The notes under the pieces were generated by a model. The model did not search any database and had not been told where the DNA came from. It saw nothing but the letters and a program-made list of their open reading frames with translations. DNA of 63,096 bases from Christiangramia sp. (GTDB lineage Bacteria; Bacteroidota; Bacteroidia; Flavobacteriales; Flavobacteriaceae). The position numbers and the translations under genes were made by a program. Shown piece after piece: positions 14,831-22,535 of the stretch (positions are counted from its first letter, which is position 1; every line of letters begins with the position of its first letter). The stretch is from NCBI RefSeq assembly GCF_029937855.1, contig NZ_JAPYPC010000026.1, forward strand, positions 1-63,096, given 5' to 3'.

Positions 14831-15997
14831 TTATCCGTATTTAACCTCTAATTCTTCATCATTTAAGATAATTTTATTAACTATAACGTTTTCGGTAATT
14901 TCTGAATCATCTGAGAGCTTTAATAATTTTCGATCTGCATTGATTTCCTGGTGAGCATATTTATTAATTTCAGGTAATATTTTTTCGATCATTGGAACAA
15001 ATTCAATTTTTCCATTTTTTAAAACTTCTTTGAACTGAATAGCAACATCTCGCACGTCACCATTGATCATTGCTTTTCGAATAATCAAATCATTAAAAAG
15101 TTTCTGATTTTGAGGAAGTTCAAAATACTTTTTATAGTCAACCAGATCGATGTTTTCTTTCGAAATTCGATATAAACAGGAGATCAAAGCCTTATACACC
15201 ATTTTTCTGGTGATTTCTCTCTCATAATCACCCGGAAAATGACCGGCTTCAAACAAAATCGTAGGGGTTGAAAGATTTTGAAATGTATCCCCGGCACAAT
15301 TAATATTAAAAGCATCATCATATCTTCCTATATTCCCTGATAAATCACTAGACAGATCTTCTGCCATACCGGCGATGATACTCATACTTCTCTTCCTATA
15401 ATCATCTATACTGCGCTGTTCATCCATCGATGGAGTCAAAAAAGAAAGGATAGCCGACTTCGGCCTGGATCCTGCGCTAAAAATTGTACGTTGATCATGC
15501 AGGTTGAGACAAAAATCGGGTTTCAGGTCATCATAAACTTCTTTTAAAAGCTTACTTTCAGGCTGATTAAGCTCCTGAAGATCCCTGTTTAGATCGATGG
15601 AATTTGCATTAACCCGCGTATAAGCCTCAGCTCCGTCAGGATTGAGAATGGGAATTAGCGTAAGCGTACAATTTTCAAGGATGCCAGAAATTGAGTTTTC
15701 ATTGGAAATCAACTTAAAGGAATTCAAAAGATCAAAAACAGCCTTTGTAGTGGTAGATTCATTTCCATGCATTTGAGACCAGGCTAAAACTTTTATATTT
15801 CCGGTTCCTGCCTTGAACTGATATATAGGTTTACCCAGAACAGATTTTCCCGGAATCGAGATTTCGAAATCATTTTTAAATTCATTAAAAACCTGTTCAA
15901 GATGGGAATTGGTAATATATCTTCCGGTTATATCTGTGAACTTCACCTGTTCGTAAGACTGATTGCTAAATAGATTTTTAAGGACATTATTCTTCAT
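14831..15997 (-). CDS. M14 family zinc carboxypeptidase
   Basis: A 388-residue metallocarboxypeptidase. Zinc ligands are His77 and Glu80 in MHGNE, plus the His of LNLHDQR. NPDGAEAYTRVNANSIDLNRD is the substrate-binding region with its Asn-Arg pair, and the catalytic Glu is probably in LFEAGHFPGDYERE. No signal peptide is apparent, so it may act in the cytoplasm on peptides or peptide-like conjugates. The ATG ending at 15997 is preferred to an upstream TTG at 16039, because that extension would be encoded by the operator palindrome at 16023-16036. It diverges from the XRE regulator across the palindrome array and is the obvious candidate target. Confidence 0.88.
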   Translation of the reverse strand: MKNNVLKNLFSNQSYEQVKFTDITGRYITNSHLEQVFNEFKNDFEISIPGKSVLGKPIYQFKAGTGNIKVLAWSQMHGNESTTTKAVFDLLNSFKLISNENSISGILENCTLTLIPILNPDGAEAYTRVNANSIDLNRDLQELNQPESKLLKEVYDDLKPDFCLNLHDQRTIFSAGSRPKSAILSFLTPSMDEQRSIDDYRKRSMSIIAGMAEDLSSDLSGNIGRYDDAFNINCAGDTFQNLSTPTILFEAGHFPGDYEREITRKMVYKALISCLYRISKENIDLVDYKKYFELPQNQKLFNDLIIRKAMINGDVRDVAIQFKEVLKNGKIEFVPMIEKILPEINKYAHQEINADRKLLKLSDDSEITENVIVNKIILNDEELEVKYG

Positions 15998-16022
15998 GTT
16001 TACAAAACTAAACAATGTAAGT

Positions 16023-16071
16023 TTTACAATTGTAAACAATAGATTTAAATAAGACTGTACACATTTGTAAA
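16023..16071. promoter_or_regulatory. Operator-like palindromes, carboxypeptidase side
   Basis: TTTACAATTGTAAA at 16023-16036 is a perfect 14-bp palindrome. TACACATTTGTAAA at 16058-16071 matches the same TTTACA-N2-TGTAAA pattern with two mismatches, and starts exactly 35 bp later. Both lie just upstream of the carboxypeptidase ATG. An isolated half site, TTTACA, occurs at 15999-16004. Confidence 0.7.
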
Positions 16072-16201
16072 CGTAAAAACACTGGCTCGTTAATAGATAC
16101 TTGGAAAATATCCTATTCTCTATAATTATAAATGTATATTGCTATTTTTTAGATATTTACACATCGTTATTTAAGATTTTTATTCAAATATATTAAGTTT
16201 G

Positions 16202-16285
16202 TTTACAATTGTAATGATATGTATTTGGAAATATTATTTACATTTGTAAATAGAATTCATCTTTCAATTTATTTACAATGGTAAA
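16202..16285. promoter_or_regulatory. Three operator-like palindromes at exact 35-bp spacing, XRE side
   Basis: TTTACAATTGTAAT (16202-16215), TTTACATTTGTAAA (16237-16250) and TTTACAATGGTAAA (16272-16285) all fit TTTACA-N2-TGTAAA with at most one mismatch. Their start positions are 35 bp apart. The third contains the ATG start codon of the XRE gene at 16278-16280. Autoregulation by the XRE protein is the simplest reading. Confidence 0.75.
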
Positions 16286-16700
16286 CACAGAAAAGTTTGC
16301 AAATCGGCTTAATAAAATTCTTAATTTTTACGATTTATCAGCTGCATCTTTTGCTGATCAAATTGAAGTGGGCCGCTCTTCCATTTCTCATATTCTATCA
16401 GGCAGGAATAAACCGAGTCTGGATTTTGTGATGAAGGTGGTCCAGAATTTTCCTGAAGTTGAATTGTATTGGTTGCTAAATGGAAAAGGTACATTTCCTT
16501 CCACTTCTCAAAAAGAGACCACACACAAAAAAGAAAATAAACAGAAGCAGGAAGTTTCAGCTAGTTATCCTAAACAGGAAGAAATTGCAAAACCAGGGAA
16601 TCAATCTTCGGATTCTTTTATTTCCAACAAATCTGGAAAGCAAATTCAGAAAATTGTAATTTTTTATACTGATGGCAGTTTTGAAGCCTTTGAAAATTGA
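16278..16700 (+). CDS. XRE-family helix-turn-helix regulator
   Basis: A 140-residue DNA-binding protein. Residues 5-68 form a Cro/cI-type five-helix HTH, with the helix pair around FADQIEVGRSSISHILSGR (residues 25-43) and a family-typical LYWLLNGKG. Residues ~73-118 are polar, Lys/Gln/Ser-rich and probably disordered. The C-terminal IQKIVIFYTDGSFEAFEN looks like a small conserved strand or partner motif. The ATG at 16278 lies inside the third palindrome of the upstream array, so the protein may block its own expression at the start site. The likely targets are itself and the divergent M14 carboxypeptidase; the signal is unknown. Confidence 0.88.
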   Translation: MVNTEKFANRLNKILNFYDLSAASFADQIEVGRSSISHILSGRNKPSLDFVMKVVQNFPEVELYWLLNGKGTFPSTSQKETTHKKENKQKQEVSASYPKQEEIAKPGNQSSDSFISNKSGKQIQKIVIFYTDGSFEAFEN

Positions 16701-17109: not shown

Positions 17110-17552
17110 TTTTGGCGCTCCCTTAAAAGTTTATTCTGTTCTTCCATCTTATCATTCAGGCTAGAAAGTAACTCAATATCCTTGGGAGTAACCACGGTCT
17201 TGTTTTTAGGATCCTGCGCTTTATTTCTAAAGCGGTTCATAAATTTAACCACCAGGAATACTACAAACCCAATTACAATAAAATCGATCATGGTTTCGAT
17301 AAGTAAGCCGTAACCTATAGAGACTTCCTCCACAAAATCGGCAGCACCTTTAACTCCAGAGCTTTCTTTTAAAACAAATTTTCTGTCGGCATAGTTTATA
17401 CCATCGGTGAGTAAACTTAGCGGAGGCATTATGATTTGCTTTACAAGCACATCTACAACACCATTAAAGGCAGTACCAATAATGATACCTACCGCCATAT
17501 CTACCATATTGCCTTTTACAGCAAATTCTTTAAACTCTTTAAATATGCCCAT
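17106..17552 (-). CDS. mscL: Large-conductance mechanosensitive channel MscL
   Basis: Forms the homopentameric inner-membrane pore that opens under hypo-osmotic stress. At 148 residues it is typical. It shows the N-terminal amphipathic helix (MGIFKEFKEFAVKGN), TM1 with DMAVGIIIGTAFNGVV, a periplasmic loop, TM2 (IDFIVIGFVVFLVVKFMN) and a C-terminal cytoplasmic helix. Its start codon shares one base with the parC stop, so it is translationally coupled to the topoisomerase IV operon, a link with no obvious functional logic. Confidence 0.95.
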   Translation of the reverse strand: MGIFKEFKEFAVKGNMVDMAVGIIIGTAFNGVVDVLVKQIIMPPLSLLTDGINYADRKFVLKESSGVKGAADFVEEVSIGYGLLIETMIDFIVIGFVVFLVVKFMNRFRNKAQDPKNKTVVTPKDIELLSSLNDKMEEQNKLLRERQN

Positions 17553-20182
17553 TATTCATCAAATAAAGAAGGTTGATCGTCTGATTTTGATTTATCTGCA
17601 GCTTTGATCTTTCCGGCTTTAATATCTTCACCAGTGATTTCTTCAGAATTTTCATTATTTTCCTCTACACCCTCTTCCTTTTCATAAGGCATTGGATCCA
17701 GCAGATTTATCTGATTTACCTTTTCTGAAGTAAGTTGATTCCCTAGGGCTTTTATTCCTTTTATGGAAATAAATTCCTCCAGATTCACTTCTTCATTATC
17801 GCGACGCTCTTTCCCTTTAGGCTTGGTATATACGATTTCTGCCATGGGATAATAATCTGTAGAGACAAGCTCTAAAAATGAATCTTCGTGCTCTGAAATA
17901 AATCTCTCTTCTTTATCCGGATGTTCTATTACAAAACGTTTTACGTAAAAGCGTTCCTTTTCAGGTTCCCAGTAAATAGCTGAAATAGGTTTGTCTTTTA
18001 TCCATTTTTCCAGCACGATGATCTCCTCATCAAATCTTGTGGTTAATTCTGGTTTAATGGTCTTGGCGACACCATCCTGAGTGATAATAAGCAGCCTGTC
18101 TTCACCTCTAAATTCACCTAAAAGCTCACCTCTTTCGTCTACATTCAATCTTTTTACCGTGTCATCAAACCAAATTCGGCGAGGTTTAAGAGTAGAAACG
18201 CCTTCTTCCTTTAATTCAATTCTCTTTACGGAATATTTTGTGACAATATTTCCTTTTACATTCCTGCCTTTAATAAGAATTTCAGCAAAATCAAGATCGA
18301 ATTTCACTTTGCGTATACTTCCTACCTGACGGAGCAATACGGTTACTACTTCTGCTTCCCCATTGGGATTTGCAGAAAAATACAGCACTTTAGAGTCTTT
18401 TTTACCCTGGCTAAGATCATATTCCCTATCCCTGGTTACTGAAGTGACTGCGAAGCGTTTCACGTAAGTGTTTCCGGCTTTTCCGTCCCGGTACACCATA
18501 TTATAGGTGGTACGCTTGTCTTTTTTCTTAAAGATGGCTACATGAATGATATCTTTACCAATAAATGTTTTAGCATCTACTTTTGTGACCATCATTTTAC
18601 CATCTGCGGTAAAACAGATAACATCATCAATATCTGAACATTCGGTTACATATTCGTCCTTTTTAAGGGAAGTACCTACAAAACCTTCTGCTCTGTTCAC
18701 ATAGAGTTTGGTGTTGCGAATCACGACTTTGGTAGCTTCAATATCTTCAAAAAGTCGGAGTTCTGTTTTTCTTTCTTTTCCTGTGCCGTAATCCTTTTTT
18801 AGCTTTTTAAAATAATCAACAGCAAAATCAACGATATGATCAAGGTGATGTTTCACCTGGGCGATTTCCCCTTCCAGGGCATCAATTTTTTGTTGTGCTT
18901 TATCAATATCAAATTTGGATATTCTTTTAATCCTTATTTCAGTAAGCCGAACAATATCTTCTTCGGTCACTGCTCTTTTAAGGTGTTTTGTATGCGGTTT
19001 TAAACCTTTATCTATCGCCTGAATCACTCCTGGCCAGGTTTCTTCTTCTTCAATATCACGATAAATACGATTTTCAATAAAGATCCTTTCTAAAGAAGCA
19101 AAGTGCCAGCTTTCTTCCAGCTCGTCAAGCTTTATTTCCAATTCCCGCTTCAGCAAATGTAGCGTATGATCTGTAGATCTTCTCAAAACATCAGATACGC
19201 CTAGGAATACCGGCTTATGATCTATAATTACACAACCTAGAGGTGCCAGTGAATTTTCACATTGAGTGAAAGCGTACAATGCATCAATAGTCTTATCTGG
19301 AGATAAATTATTTGGTAAATGAATCAGGATTTCCACCTCAGCAGCGGTATTATCTTCGATCTTTTTGATCTTGATCTTCCCTTTATCATTAGCCTTAAGA
19401 ATAGAATCTATAAGGCTCGAGGTATTGGTGCCGTAAGGAATTTCATTGATTACCAGCGTATTTTTATCCAACTGATTGATCTTCGCCCTAATCCTTACTC
19501 TACCACCGCGTTTTCCATCATTATAATTAGAAATATCTGCAATTCCGCCGGTTGGGAAATCAGGAAAAAGTTTAAAACTCTTTCCTCTCAAATGCTGTAT
19601 TGAGGCATCTATAAGTTCATTGAAATTATGCGGAAGAAATCTGGTACTTAGCCCAACGGCAATTCCCTCAGCTCCCTGCGCTAACAACATGGGGAATTTT
19701 ACCGGAAGGTTTACCGGTTCCTGTTTTCTACCATCATAAGAAAGTTGCCATTCGGTTAACTTCGGACTAAAAAGAACTTCTAAAGCAAATTTTGAAAGTC
19801 TGGCCTCGATATAACGAGGAGCAGCCGCACGGTCCCCTGTTAAAATATTTCCCCAGTTTCCCTGGGTATCTATAAGAATATCCTTTTGACCAATCTGAAC
19901 CATCGCATCACCAATACTGGCATCCCCGTGAGGGTGATACTGCATGGTATGTCCTACGATATTCGCAACTTTATTGTAGCGCCCATCATCAAGATCCTTC
20001 ATAGAATGCATGATTCGGCGTTGTACTGGTTTAAAACCATCTTCAATTGCAGGTACTGCCCGTTCCAGGATTACGTATGAAGCATAATCCAGAAACCAGT
20101 CTTTGTACATGCCGGTTACCTTTATAAGTTCTTCTTTACTTTCAAACTGCTCTTCTTGAGCTCCTTCTTGGTTTTCTTCCAT
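17552..20182 (-). CDS. parC: DNA topoisomerase IV subunit A
   Basis: Breakage-reunion subunit of type IIA topoisomerase, acting in chromosome decatenation. At 876 residues it has the N-terminal winged-helix/tower region with the active-site Tyr124 in AAAPRYIEARLS, HPHGDASIGDAM, and a C-terminal beta-propeller. The GyrA box QRRGGKG is absent, which supports topoisomerase IV over gyrase. The last ~50 residues are acidic and low in complexity. The start overlaps the upstream membrane-protein gene by one base and the stop overlaps mscL by one base. Confidence 0.92.
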   Translation of the reverse strand: MEENQEGAQEEQFESKEELIKVTGMYKDWFLDYASYVILERAVPAIEDGFKPVQRRIMHSMKDLDDGRYNKVANIVGHTMQYHPHGDASIGDAMVQIGQKDILIDTQGNWGNILTGDRAAAPRYIEARLSKFALEVLFSPKLTEWQLSYDGRKQEPVNLPVKFPMLLAQGAEGIAVGLSTRFLPHNFNELIDASIQHLRGKSFKLFPDFPTGGIADISNYNDGKRGGRVRIRAKINQLDKNTLVINEIPYGTNTSSLIDSILKANDKGKIKIKKIEDNTAAEVEILIHLPNNLSPDKTIDALYAFTQCENSLAPLGCVIIDHKPVFLGVSDVLRRSTDHTLHLLKRELEIKLDELEESWHFASLERIFIENRIYRDIEEEETWPGVIQAIDKGLKPHTKHLKRAVTEEDIVRLTEIRIKRISKFDIDKAQQKIDALEGEIAQVKHHLDHIVDFAVDYFKKLKKDYGTGKERKTELRLFEDIEATKVVIRNTKLYVNRAEGFVGTSLKKDEYVTECSDIDDVICFTADGKMMVTKVDAKTFIGKDIIHVAIFKKKDKRTTYNMVYRDGKAGNTYVKRFAVTSVTRDREYDLSQGKKDSKVLYFSANPNGEAEVVTVLLRQVGSIRKVKFDLDFAEILIKGRNVKGNIVTKYSVKRIELKEEGVSTLKPRRIWFDDTVKRLNVDERGELLGEFRGEDRLLIITQDGVAKTIKPELTTRFDEEIIVLEKWIKDKPISAIYWEPEKERFYVKRFVIEHPDKEERFISEHEDSFLELVSTDYYPMAEIVYTKPKGKERRDNEEVNLEEFISIKGIKALGNQLTSEKVNQINLLDPMPYEKEEGVEENNENSEEITGEDIKAGKIKAADKSKSDDQPSLFDE

Positions 20183-20676
20183 TAGGCAGTAGGTTTAGGA
20201 ACGGTTTGTAGAACTTTGTTCAAGGAATCAACCATTCCCCTTTTCTTTTTTCGATTTAAAAATGTGGTATTGAATGTATACTTTCTATAGCCTTTTTTCC
20301 TTCTGGAATTAATATAAATAGTCAATGCAGAATAGATCCCATAATCCATAAATTTGAATTTCCCCAGTTTTCTCTTAGGGAATTCAGCTTTCTGAACCCG
20401 GTATTCCATAAATTTTGAAAAAAAGACTCCGTTGTTTTTAAAATTCAGCGTTTCCCCGTCACTATCAAAATCAAAAGACTGACCGATTCTATGAACGTAT
20501 AATCCTAAAAGCAGTGTGACGATATTGGGCACAAAATGGCTGAAACTTATCTGCTGTTCAGATTCTGAAGAAGCCATGATCTCAATGTTCACAAAAACAT
20601 TGGTAACAAATACCGCCACAAGAACGATATAAATAGATGGAATTATTTTGACCTCGTTTTTATTGGTAAATCTCAT
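20182..20676 (-). CDS. Membrane protein of unknown function within the parE-parC operon
   Basis: A 164-residue protein with two hydrophobic segments (about residues 12-32 and 48-64) followed by a basic soluble domain of ~95 residues ([19 protein letters not shown], then [17 protein letters not shown]) that could be PH-like. I recognise no family with certainty. Its start overlaps parE by four bases and its stop overlaps the parC start by one base, so all three are translated as one coupled unit. The position suggests either a topoisomerase-related membrane role or simple historical insertion; the sequence does not decide. Confidence 0.8.
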
Positions 20677-22535
20677 ATGCCAAGCTCTTCAACAAGGTCT
20701 AATTCAACTTTCAGGTTATCGATGATAAATTCCTGTCTATCGGGTGTATTTTTACCCATGTAAAAACTCAACATTTCTTCAATAGACTTGTCTTTATCCA
20801 GCATTACGGGATCTAAACGGATATCTTCTCCTATAAAATGGACAAATTCATCTGGGCTTATTTCCCCCAAACCTTTAAAACGAGTGATTTCAGGTTTTCC
20901 CGAAAGTTTTTCGATCGCCTGTTTACGCTCCATTTCACTGTAACAATAGATCGTTTCCTTTTTATTACGTACCCTGAATAAAGGGGTTTGTAAGATATAT
21001 AAATGATTTTCTTTGATCAATTCGGGGAAGAACTGAAGGAAAAAAGTGATCAATAATAATCTAATGTGCATCCCATCAACATCGGCATCTGTAGCAATCA
21101 CAATATTATGGTACCTAAGATCTTCCAGAGAATCTTCAATATTTAAAGCTGCCTGAAGCAGGTTGAATTCCTCATTTTCGTAAACGATCTTTTTTGAAAG
21201 TCCGTAACTGTTTAGAGGTTTACCTTTCAAACTAAAAACAGCCTGGGTAACCACGTCACGGCTTTTGGTAATAGATCCACTTGCAGAATCCCCCTCGGTT
21301 ATGAATAAAGTAGTTTCTAAACAACGTTCATGTTTACTATCTCCCAGGTGAACCCTGCAATCTCTTAATTTTTTATTATGAAGACTGGCTTTTTTAGCTC
21401 TGTCTTTGGCTAGCTTTCGAATTCCTGAAAGATCTTTACGTTCTCTTTCTGCCTGAAGTATTTTACGCTGAAGACTTTCAGCAGTTTCCGGATTTTTATG
21501 CAGATAATTATCAAGATTCCTTTTTACAAAATCATTAATATAGGTCCTTACCGTTGGAAGTTTTCCGCCCATATCTGTAGAACCTAGTTTTGTTTTCGTC
21601 TGACTTTCAAAAACCGGCTCCATTACTTTGATACTAATGGCGGCGACAATGGATTTTCTTATATCGCTGGCTTCGTAATTTTTTCCATAGAATTCACGAA
21701 CGGTTTTTACTACTGCTTCTCTAAAGGCTGCCAGGTGCGTCCCTCCCTGAGAAGTATTCTGTCCATTCACAAAAGAGTGGTATTCTTCAGAATATTGGGA
21801 TTTACTATGCGTGATGGCAACTTCAATATCTTCTCCCTTTAAATGAAGAATTGGGTACAGCATATCATCTTCATGAATACTATCTCCAAGAAGATCTTTT
21901 AGGCCATTTTCAGAATAGAACTTTTCACCGTTAAAAACGATGGTTAGTCCCGGATTGAGGTATACATAGTTTTTAAGCATTTTCTCTATATATTCATTTC
22001 TGAATTTATAGTTTTTAAAAATGACCTCATCCGGTATAAAAGTGATCTTGGTTCCTCTTCTGCGAGAGGTTTCTTCAAGATGTTCCTCATCTTTTAATTC
22101 CCCCTGCTCAAATTCAGCAGCATGACTTTTTGAATCCCGGGAAGATTCCACCCGAAAATAGGAAGAAAGCGCATTTACCGCTTTGGTACCAACACCATTT
22201 AAACCTACAGATTTTTTAAAGGCTCGTGTATCGTACTTACCTCCGGTATTCATCTTGGAAACTACATCTACAACTTTCCCTAGTGGAATTCCCCTACCAA
22301 AGTCACGAACGATAACCCGCTGATTCTGCACAGAAATTTCAATGGTTTTTCCTGCGCCCATCACGAACTCGTCAATACTATTATCTATAACTTCTTTTAA
22401 GAGTATATATATGCCGTCATCCTGACTGGATCCATCTCCAAGTTTCCCGATGTACATCCCGGGACGCATACGAATATGTTCCTTCCAGTCTAATGACCGA
22501 ATATTATCTTCGGTATATTTAGTATTCTCGCTCAT
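20673..22535 (-). CDS. parE: DNA topoisomerase IV subunit B
   Basis: ATPase subunit partnering ParC. At 620 residues it is of ParE rather than GyrB length. The GHKL ATP site includes [12 protein letters not shown] (catalytic Glu and Mg-binding Asn), DFGRGIPLG and [16 protein letters not shown]. The Toprim domain has [12 protein letters not shown] and the metal-binding [18 protein letters not shown] is present near the middle. It is first gene of parE-membrane protein-parC-mscL, with a near-consensus TATATTTA about 22 bases upstream on its strand. Confidence 0.93.

Follow-up and report, generated by a model that had tools for sequence, protein, structure and literature searches.

The window, that is, the whole stretch of DNA analyzed in this study (63,096 nts from Christiangramia sp., Flavobacteriaceae; contig NZ_JAPYPC010000026.1 of assembly GCF_029937855.1), contains a pair of divergent genes with an unusual spacer between them. 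On the minus strand lies the gene for an M14 zinc carboxypeptidase (14831..15997), which encodes 388 aa when translation starts at the ATG at 15997. This start was preferred to the TTG at 16039, because the latter would place two of the operators described below within the gene and many orthologues align from the ATG. The protein scored 40.2 bits against Pfam Peptidase_M14 (cut-off 21.6 bits), and its structure model matches metallocarboxypeptidases. Among the curated NCBIfam families, MpaA (NF007897) came closest and aligned with residues 50-145 at 29.5 bits, far under the equivalog cut-off of 157 bits, and an assignment as murein tripeptide amidase MpaA was rejected on this basis. No signal peptide was apparent on inspection by eye. 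On the plus strand, a gene for an XRE regulator of 140 aa (16278..16700) was found, whose profile scores exceed the respective cut-offs (in parentheses) for HTH_19 (30.7 bits; 30.2), HTH_3 (27.7 bits; 23), and Phage_CI_repr (24.0 bits; 22). In its structure model, a five-helix HTH domain predicted with confidence (residues 4-68) is joined by a linker of low confidence to a beta-hairpin at the C-terminus (residues 125-139). Fold matches include C.AhdI, SinR, and 434 Cro (E 0.0026-0.015, none at E ≤0.001); the top ones are small controller proteins, SinR and 434 Cro rank lower, and DdrO is among the weak matches (E 0.028). Past the MscL gene, two large frames (17552-22535) resemble what we take to be subunits A and B of topoisomerase IV.

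The first-pass annotation had listed five palindromes fitting TTTACA-N2-TGTAAA in the spacer and described them as an array with an exact 35-bp period within each cluster. Their coordinates (16023, 16058, 16202, 16237, and 16272) and mismatch counts proved exact on recheck, and the recomputed spacings were exactly 35, 144, 35, and 35 bp. A sixth, conserved site (TTTACAAAACTAAA, two mismatches) starts at 15999, 24 bp from 16023, so that the spacer between the two divergent genes has six operators rather than five. From left to right, they were named M1 (15999..16012), M2 (16023..16036), M3 (16058..16071), X1 (16202..16215), X2 (16237..16250), and X3 (16272..16285), with no strand assigned to any of them. 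M2 and X2 are perfect palindromes, M3 lies 35 bp from M2, X1 is present in some spacers only (39 loci), and X3 overlaps the start codon of the XRE gene (ATG 16278). The palindromes and the 35-bp steps are real, and the array consists of two clusters of at most three operators each, which flank a conserved central element. The idea that the 144-bp gap is a multiple of 35 was rejected, as the region between 16071 and 16202 has no site at ≤2 mismatches and sites with three mismatches are only scattered there.

The spacer is AT-rich, and such sites might arise in it by accident or as a functionless repeat. At ≤2 mismatches, the 63-kb window contains 19 matches (8.8 expected), six of which fall inside the 287-bp spacer. 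When the spacer was simulated 40,000 times with a first-order Markov model, the copies had 0.22 sites on average, none had five or more sites, and none had three 35-bp pairs. Together with the retention of the sites throughout the family while the surrounding sequence diverges, this makes the probability of an accidental or functionless array negligible.

A search across 299 genomes of the family (236 genera) found the XRE gene in 282 of them (224 genera; E ≤1e-10). We gathered 230 XRE loci from genomes of the genus and of the family, from further families of the order, and from named records, and dropped two with runs of N (L008 and L076), 14 duplicates, and three with fewer than 330 bases upstream, resulting in 211 distinct orthologous spacers. 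The M14 gene is divergent from XRE at a distance of 100-420 bp in 190 of these loci. The first-pass annotation had proposed the conservation of the sites and of the 35-bp spacing in orthologous Flavobacteriaceae spacers as a check, and both have indeed been kept: at least three operators are present in 200 of the 211 spacers, and, when scored with a matrix derived from the genus, every spacer has one or more sites of ≥9. By comparison, 4.4% of 4,220 shuffled spacers have one such site and none has three. Within the genus, 23 spacers could be aligned (a 24th was left out because of a run of N). Four same-genus spacers have the identical sequence in named records of Christiangramia (formerly Gramella), and a fifth has it in a record of Gramella sp. 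All six sites occupy identical positions relative to the XRE start in 19 of the 23, and the 76 operator columns contain 1.56 bits of information on average, versus 0.70 for the other 204 columns, the intervening sequence having diverged between the kept operators.

A total of 525 adjacent operator pairs no more than 60 bp apart were collected from the 211 spacers. The step is 35 bp in 178 of them, 34 bp in 62, and 36 bp in 27; other common steps are 24 bp (154 pairs) and 43-45 bp (25 pairs). With a helical repeat of 10.5 bp, these within-cluster steps have a common deviation of about 0.3 turn from whole turns (R = 0.835, many pairs being common by descent), so neighboring dimers would be rotated by about one-third of a turn. 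The step of about 3.3 turns noted earlier for the window is valid for most adjacent sites across the family. X3 lies exactly at -6 relative to XRE in 182 of the 211 loci, and the first codons of the gene therefore double as operator sequence (ATG GTA AAC in 118 and ATG ATA AAC in 62 of the 211).

Several variant layouts were also observed. The X2-X3 step is 24-25 bp instead of approximately 35 bp, that is, one helical turn less, in nine of 152 loci (e.g., L046, L065, L137, L140, L219, and L227). Spacers of Zobellia, Maribacter, and Eudoraea (L049, L131, L193, L196, and L207) have another arrangement without X2, such as sites at -250, -228, -185, and -6; in L049 and L207, the sites near -185 and -6 are 179-180 bp apart and resemble M3 and X2 of the window. 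In two loci from another family of the order, XRE keeps operators (at -210 and -7 in L078 and at -7 in L080) although its divergent neighbors are not M14 genes; the place of M14 is taken by a 90-aa frame and by a presumably MutL-like gene.

The positions of the operators relative to promoter boxes suggest how they might act. The -7 box of flavobacterial sigma-A is TAnnTTTG, located at -12 to -5 (PMC9723704, partial text). On the plus strand, this motif was found within X2 in 142 of 145 loci (in the window, TACATTTG at 16239-16246, the predicted -7 box of XRE) and within X3 in none of 181. On the minus strand, it occurs within M1 at 149 of 165 sites, and in the window the predicted -7 box of M14 is TAGTTTTG. 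Each gene thus has its promoter box within an operator and oriented toward itself. M2 was rejected as the -7 box of M14, since it contains the motif in 47 of 165 cases versus 149 of 165 for M1. Transcription of XRE is predicted to start near 16251 and that of M14 one base from its ATG (15997), and the latter (window 15997-16010) suggests a nearly leaderless message. We regard it as very probable that both promoters are repressed by XRE dimers sitting on their -7 boxes.

The adjacent XRE protein had been proposed as the regulator of both itself and M14, and the comparison of genomes with and without XRE argues for this assignment. Seventeen genomes of the family have no XRE at E ≤1e-10; 13 of them have an M14 match, 11 of which have enough upstream sequence and were used. 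Loci whose contig ends at the gene (L280 and L281), second, larger M14 paralogues, and G048, in which XRE is present, were excluded from this set, and no XRE was detected near M14 in the 11 loci at E ≤0.01. Within approximately 300 bp of the M14 start (239 bp in one case), none of these 11 loci has a site at ≤1 mismatch, versus 184 of 190 loci with XRE, which have a mean of 2.7 such sites; at two mismatches, the XRE-less loci hold four sites in all. The gene that usually follows XRE (orf3) is still there in eight of the 11. Because the 11 loci include pairs from the same genus, they do not amount to 11 independent tests, and a deletion of XRE may have carried off the M-side operators too. Strong putative operators and XRE are present or absent together, and the sites appear to behave as operators of the adjacent protein (at least three in 200 of 211 spacers with XRE; strong sites in none of 11 loci without it).

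A different regulator might nevertheless bind these sites, such as a LexA-like S24 repressor, with XRE being a mere neighbor. A LexA-like protein of E. anophelis binds the related sequence TTAC-AAATT-GTAA (PMC8565304, partial text), and the genome of the window has three S24 matches. We consider this very unlikely: the sites studied here have four rather than five bases between TTAC and GTAA, the SOS-type genes of this genome bear GGA-N5-TCC instead, and strong sites accompany XRE and are absent where it is absent. In addition, all 26 matches of the strict 15-mer TTTACANNTGTAAAC in 24 genomes of the genus lie in the XRE-M14 spacer (positions compared by eye).

The same count bears on the genome-wide search that the first-pass annotation had suggested for defining a regulon: as the 26 strict matches all lie at one locus, a wider regulon of strong sites is not supported. 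Weaker targets are possible, since the genome of the window contains 44 sites at ≤1 mismatch versus 28 for a reversed control pattern. Of these sites, the four perfect ones were inspected: two are in the XRE-M14 spacer and one (C72:29433) falls within a 719-aa reading frame. The fourth, TTTACAAATGTAAA, is located at G000:C5:64719 (L031, 1501-1514), 13 bp upstream of a 217-aa frame that is divergent from a 243-aa frame, and might be a second target.

We next consider the distance between the two clusters, which could be scored for phase in 142 of the 211 spacers (those in which X2 and an unambiguous M1-M2 pair are both present; the other 69 lack one or the other, and some of them have another layout without X2). 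Looping had been thought unusual for a step of 3.3 turns between neighbors; it is instead favored, because the distance between the clusters is quantized in helical turns. From M2 to X2, the distance is 201-203 bp in five loci, 209-215 bp in 86, 221-225 bp in 43, and 232-235 bp in eight, with a best period of 10.4-10.5 bp (R = 0.815, n = 142). Among loci whose XRE proteins are less than 65% identical, R is 0.743 (n = 45). A tree of XRE from 206 of the 211 loci (one short protein, no support values) provided 46 independent pairs that differ in the M2-to-X2 distance: the difference is 1-3 bp in 23 pairs, 8-13 bp in 20, and 19-22 bp in three, and it is never 4-7 or 14-18 bp. The phase value observed for differences of 4-25 bp was not reached in any of 100,000 random draws, whether these were taken uniformly over a range or from the control. 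The control, namely the spacer downstream of XRE, has no helical pattern (R = 0.24, n = 107, differences of 1 to 98). The commonest M2-X2 distance, 214 bp, corresponds to about 20.4 turns and is not a whole number, whereas the M3-X2 distance of 179 bp corresponds to about 17.0 turns.

Near the M3-X2 midpoint lies the conserved central element, named C (16145..16185, plus strand). Its family consensus is TTTTTCAG-N4-TTA...TTTATATAAAGT, with TAG replacing CAG in the window, and it scores >10 in 183 of 211 loci and low in the other 28. The distances from C to M2 and from C to X2 are likewise quantized with a step of about one turn. For M2 to C, 44 pairs were available: 17 differ by 1-3 bp, none by 4-8 bp, 24 by 9-13 bp, and one each by 20, 22, and 34 bp. 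We also compared the two arms, M3-C and C-X2, in 98 loci, taking TCAG-N4-TTA as the center (a choice fixed after one case had been seen). The arms differ by 0-4 bp in 66 loci, by 11-14 bp in 26, by -8 to -10 bp in five, and by 22 bp in one. The core TCAG-N4-TTA resembles the IHF consensus. The possibility that C is a sigma-A promoter was rejected, as the consensus has no TAnnTTTG.

The sequences thus contain operators that overlap promoter boxes, co-occur with XRE, and are spaced by whole turns, as well as a match to a LexA box discussed below. From them we infer that XRE binds and represses, that the DNA loops with a bending protein at C, and that LexA acts on the switch. In the reading that we prefer, with a probability of roughly 65%, the spacer would be the control region of a self-regulating, looped switch, seemingly dedicated to the XRE-M14 locus. 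XRE dimers would bind TTTACA-N2-TGTAAA. On their own gene, they would cover the -7 box (X2) and the start codon (X3), and on the divergent M14 gene the -7 box (M1). Dimers of the M side and the X side would probably touch each other across a loop bent at its center, perhaps, as a guess, via the C-terminal hairpin, which is conserved and sits on a flexible linker, and the approximately 180-250 bp between the clusters would be folded into this loop with the bend at C. As both promoters would be shut together, XRE would set its own level and M14 would follow.

The main rival to the loop is local occlusion without it: XRE dimers would block the polymerase at each promoter separately, and the phase would be set by a factor at C facing both promoters, for example an activator or an upstream element. 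The -7 boxes lie within operators, so occlusion alone could repress, and the spacing from C to either side is itself quantized by about one turn. Such an arrangement leaves unexplained why M2 and M3, which do not coincide with the -7 boxes, are retained, why M3, C, and X2 have a roughly symmetrical layout, and why L028, whose genome (88% complete) has no M14 match, still keeps the M-side operators. It is a possible explanation but a doubtful one, and we favor the looped switch.

Between the two clusters, the window also contains an 11-nt LexA (SOS) box (16103..16113, no strand assigned; GGAAAATATCC), which fits the motif GGA-N5-TCC reported for Flavobacteriaceae. Boxes of this kind occur in 54 of the 211 spacers, always at -172 to -184 and nowhere else within -265 to -45, versus 0.2% of shuffled spacers. 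In 51 of 52 cases, the box starts 42 bp ahead of C. On the tree, the carriers of the box group together (6 changes versus 48 with shuffled labels). They include Christiangramia, Salegentibacter, Salinimicrobium, Mesonia, Psychroflexus, and Leeuwenhoekiella; the box is missing from one Salegentibacter (L171) and one Psychroflexus (L211). The genus name in S. agarivorans, the species mentioned next, is Salegentibacter. In S. agarivorans, a LexA-like repressor binds GGA-N5-TCC (PMC8565304, partial text). The 54 spacers have this motif of the Bacteroidetes LexA regulon at a narrow range of positions. Neither carboxypeptidase nor COG2866 is mentioned in the main text of that article. Unlike the SOS-type genes in the genome of the window, which have two boxes, the XRE-M14 spacer has a single one that overlaps neither predicted core promoter.

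In this genome, box pairs precede two of the three S24 matches. One pair lies directly upstream of a 255-aa S24 protein (L266, 2153-2194), a candidate for the LexA of the organism. Pairs were also found upstream of two further frames, of which one resembles a radical-SAM protein and the other a GIY-YIG-domain exonuclease. The pattern TTGGAANNNATCC has 19 matches in the genome; 14 of them apparently lie within frames of at least 150 aa (two of these 14 loci being at contig ends and not centered on the match), and two more have no start codon within 300 bp. The boxes of the S24 genes came from a pattern other than TTGGAANNNATCC. Being inside the putative loop, the LexA box would couple the switch to the SOS response in those genera that carry it.

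Some of these features are familiar from known systems. In the Gal repressosome of E. coli, GalR binds the operators OE and OI, and HU binds at the apex of the loop (PMC4693257, partial text). As that text describes the Gal system, both have operators that flank a central site, a dependence on helical phase, and a single loop that represses several promoters at once, the loop being inferred in the present case. The differences, relative to the same text, are that the regulator is a small XRE protein and not GalR; that clusters of up to three operators replace single ones; that the operators occupy a spacer between divergent genes and extend into the start codon of the regulator; and that a conserved element C with a putative factor would take the place of HU at the apex, with a LexA box between the clusters in some genera. 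Separated operators under phase constraint, a Gal-type feature, were found here as judged from the 142 of 211 spacers scored. Since its regulator is an XRE protein, the locus perhaps works like the Gal repressosome but is no member of that class.

Repressors of the phage CI/Cro type and Xre of PBSX are HTH proteins that act on arrays of palindromic operators and are autoregulated. The XRE-M14 locus is similar to them in the HTH fold of its repressor, in having multiple palindromic operators between divergent genes, and in its autoregulation (putative here), and it differs in that the divergent partner is a carboxypeptidase gene and the steps are 24 and 35 bp. As 282 of the 299 family genomes have XRE, mostly beside the same gene, it is not a sporadic prophage gene. 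In ImmR/ImmA and DdrO/IrrE, an XRE repressor is paired with a zinc metallopeptidase. The present locus likewise has an XRE repressor beside a zinc peptidase gene; however, the M14 carboxypeptidase does not belong to the ImmA/IrrE family, the genes are divergent, and cleavage of XRE is conjectural. An extended and quite unlikely version of the scheme would combine a phase-locked XRE loop and LexA entry in some genera with trimming of the C-terminal hairpin of the repressor by M14, which would close the circuit. Such trimming is speculative and would be analogous to the action of ImmA/IrrE on the XRE partner, by another chemistry. The hairpin region of XRE is kept in L028 and in L078, where no M14 match is present in the genome and in the flank, respectively, which counts mildly against it.

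A survey of XRE motifs published in 2025, with 223 motif clusters, describes XRE dimers that bind palindromes upstream of their own genes, and one protein tested there, Motif_210, recognizes a site with a TTAC segment (PMC12565409, partial text). The XRE-M14 palindrome may be among these 223 clusters. The strings TTTACA, TGTAAA, Flavobacteri, and Bacteroid are absent from the main text of that article, in which nothing on arrays, phasing, or looping was seen either (PMC12565409, partial text). No description of an XRE-M14 locus was found among the matches listed in the open-license literature (titles and abstract openings).

Loop-forming repressors are represented by few model systems, in which spacings have been tested construct by construct. 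In the XRE-M14 spacers, natural divergence across many genera seems to have done the equivalent: alterations in length by 1-3 bp or by approximately whole turns persist, and half-turn alterations were not seen in 46 independent pairs. If the proposed reading is true, nearly all genomes of Flavobacteriaceae would contain a looped switch whose phase dependence could be tested against natural variants. It would also provide a first function for an uncharacterized XRE protein and its carboxypeptidase neighbor, with a possible link to the SOS response in some genera.
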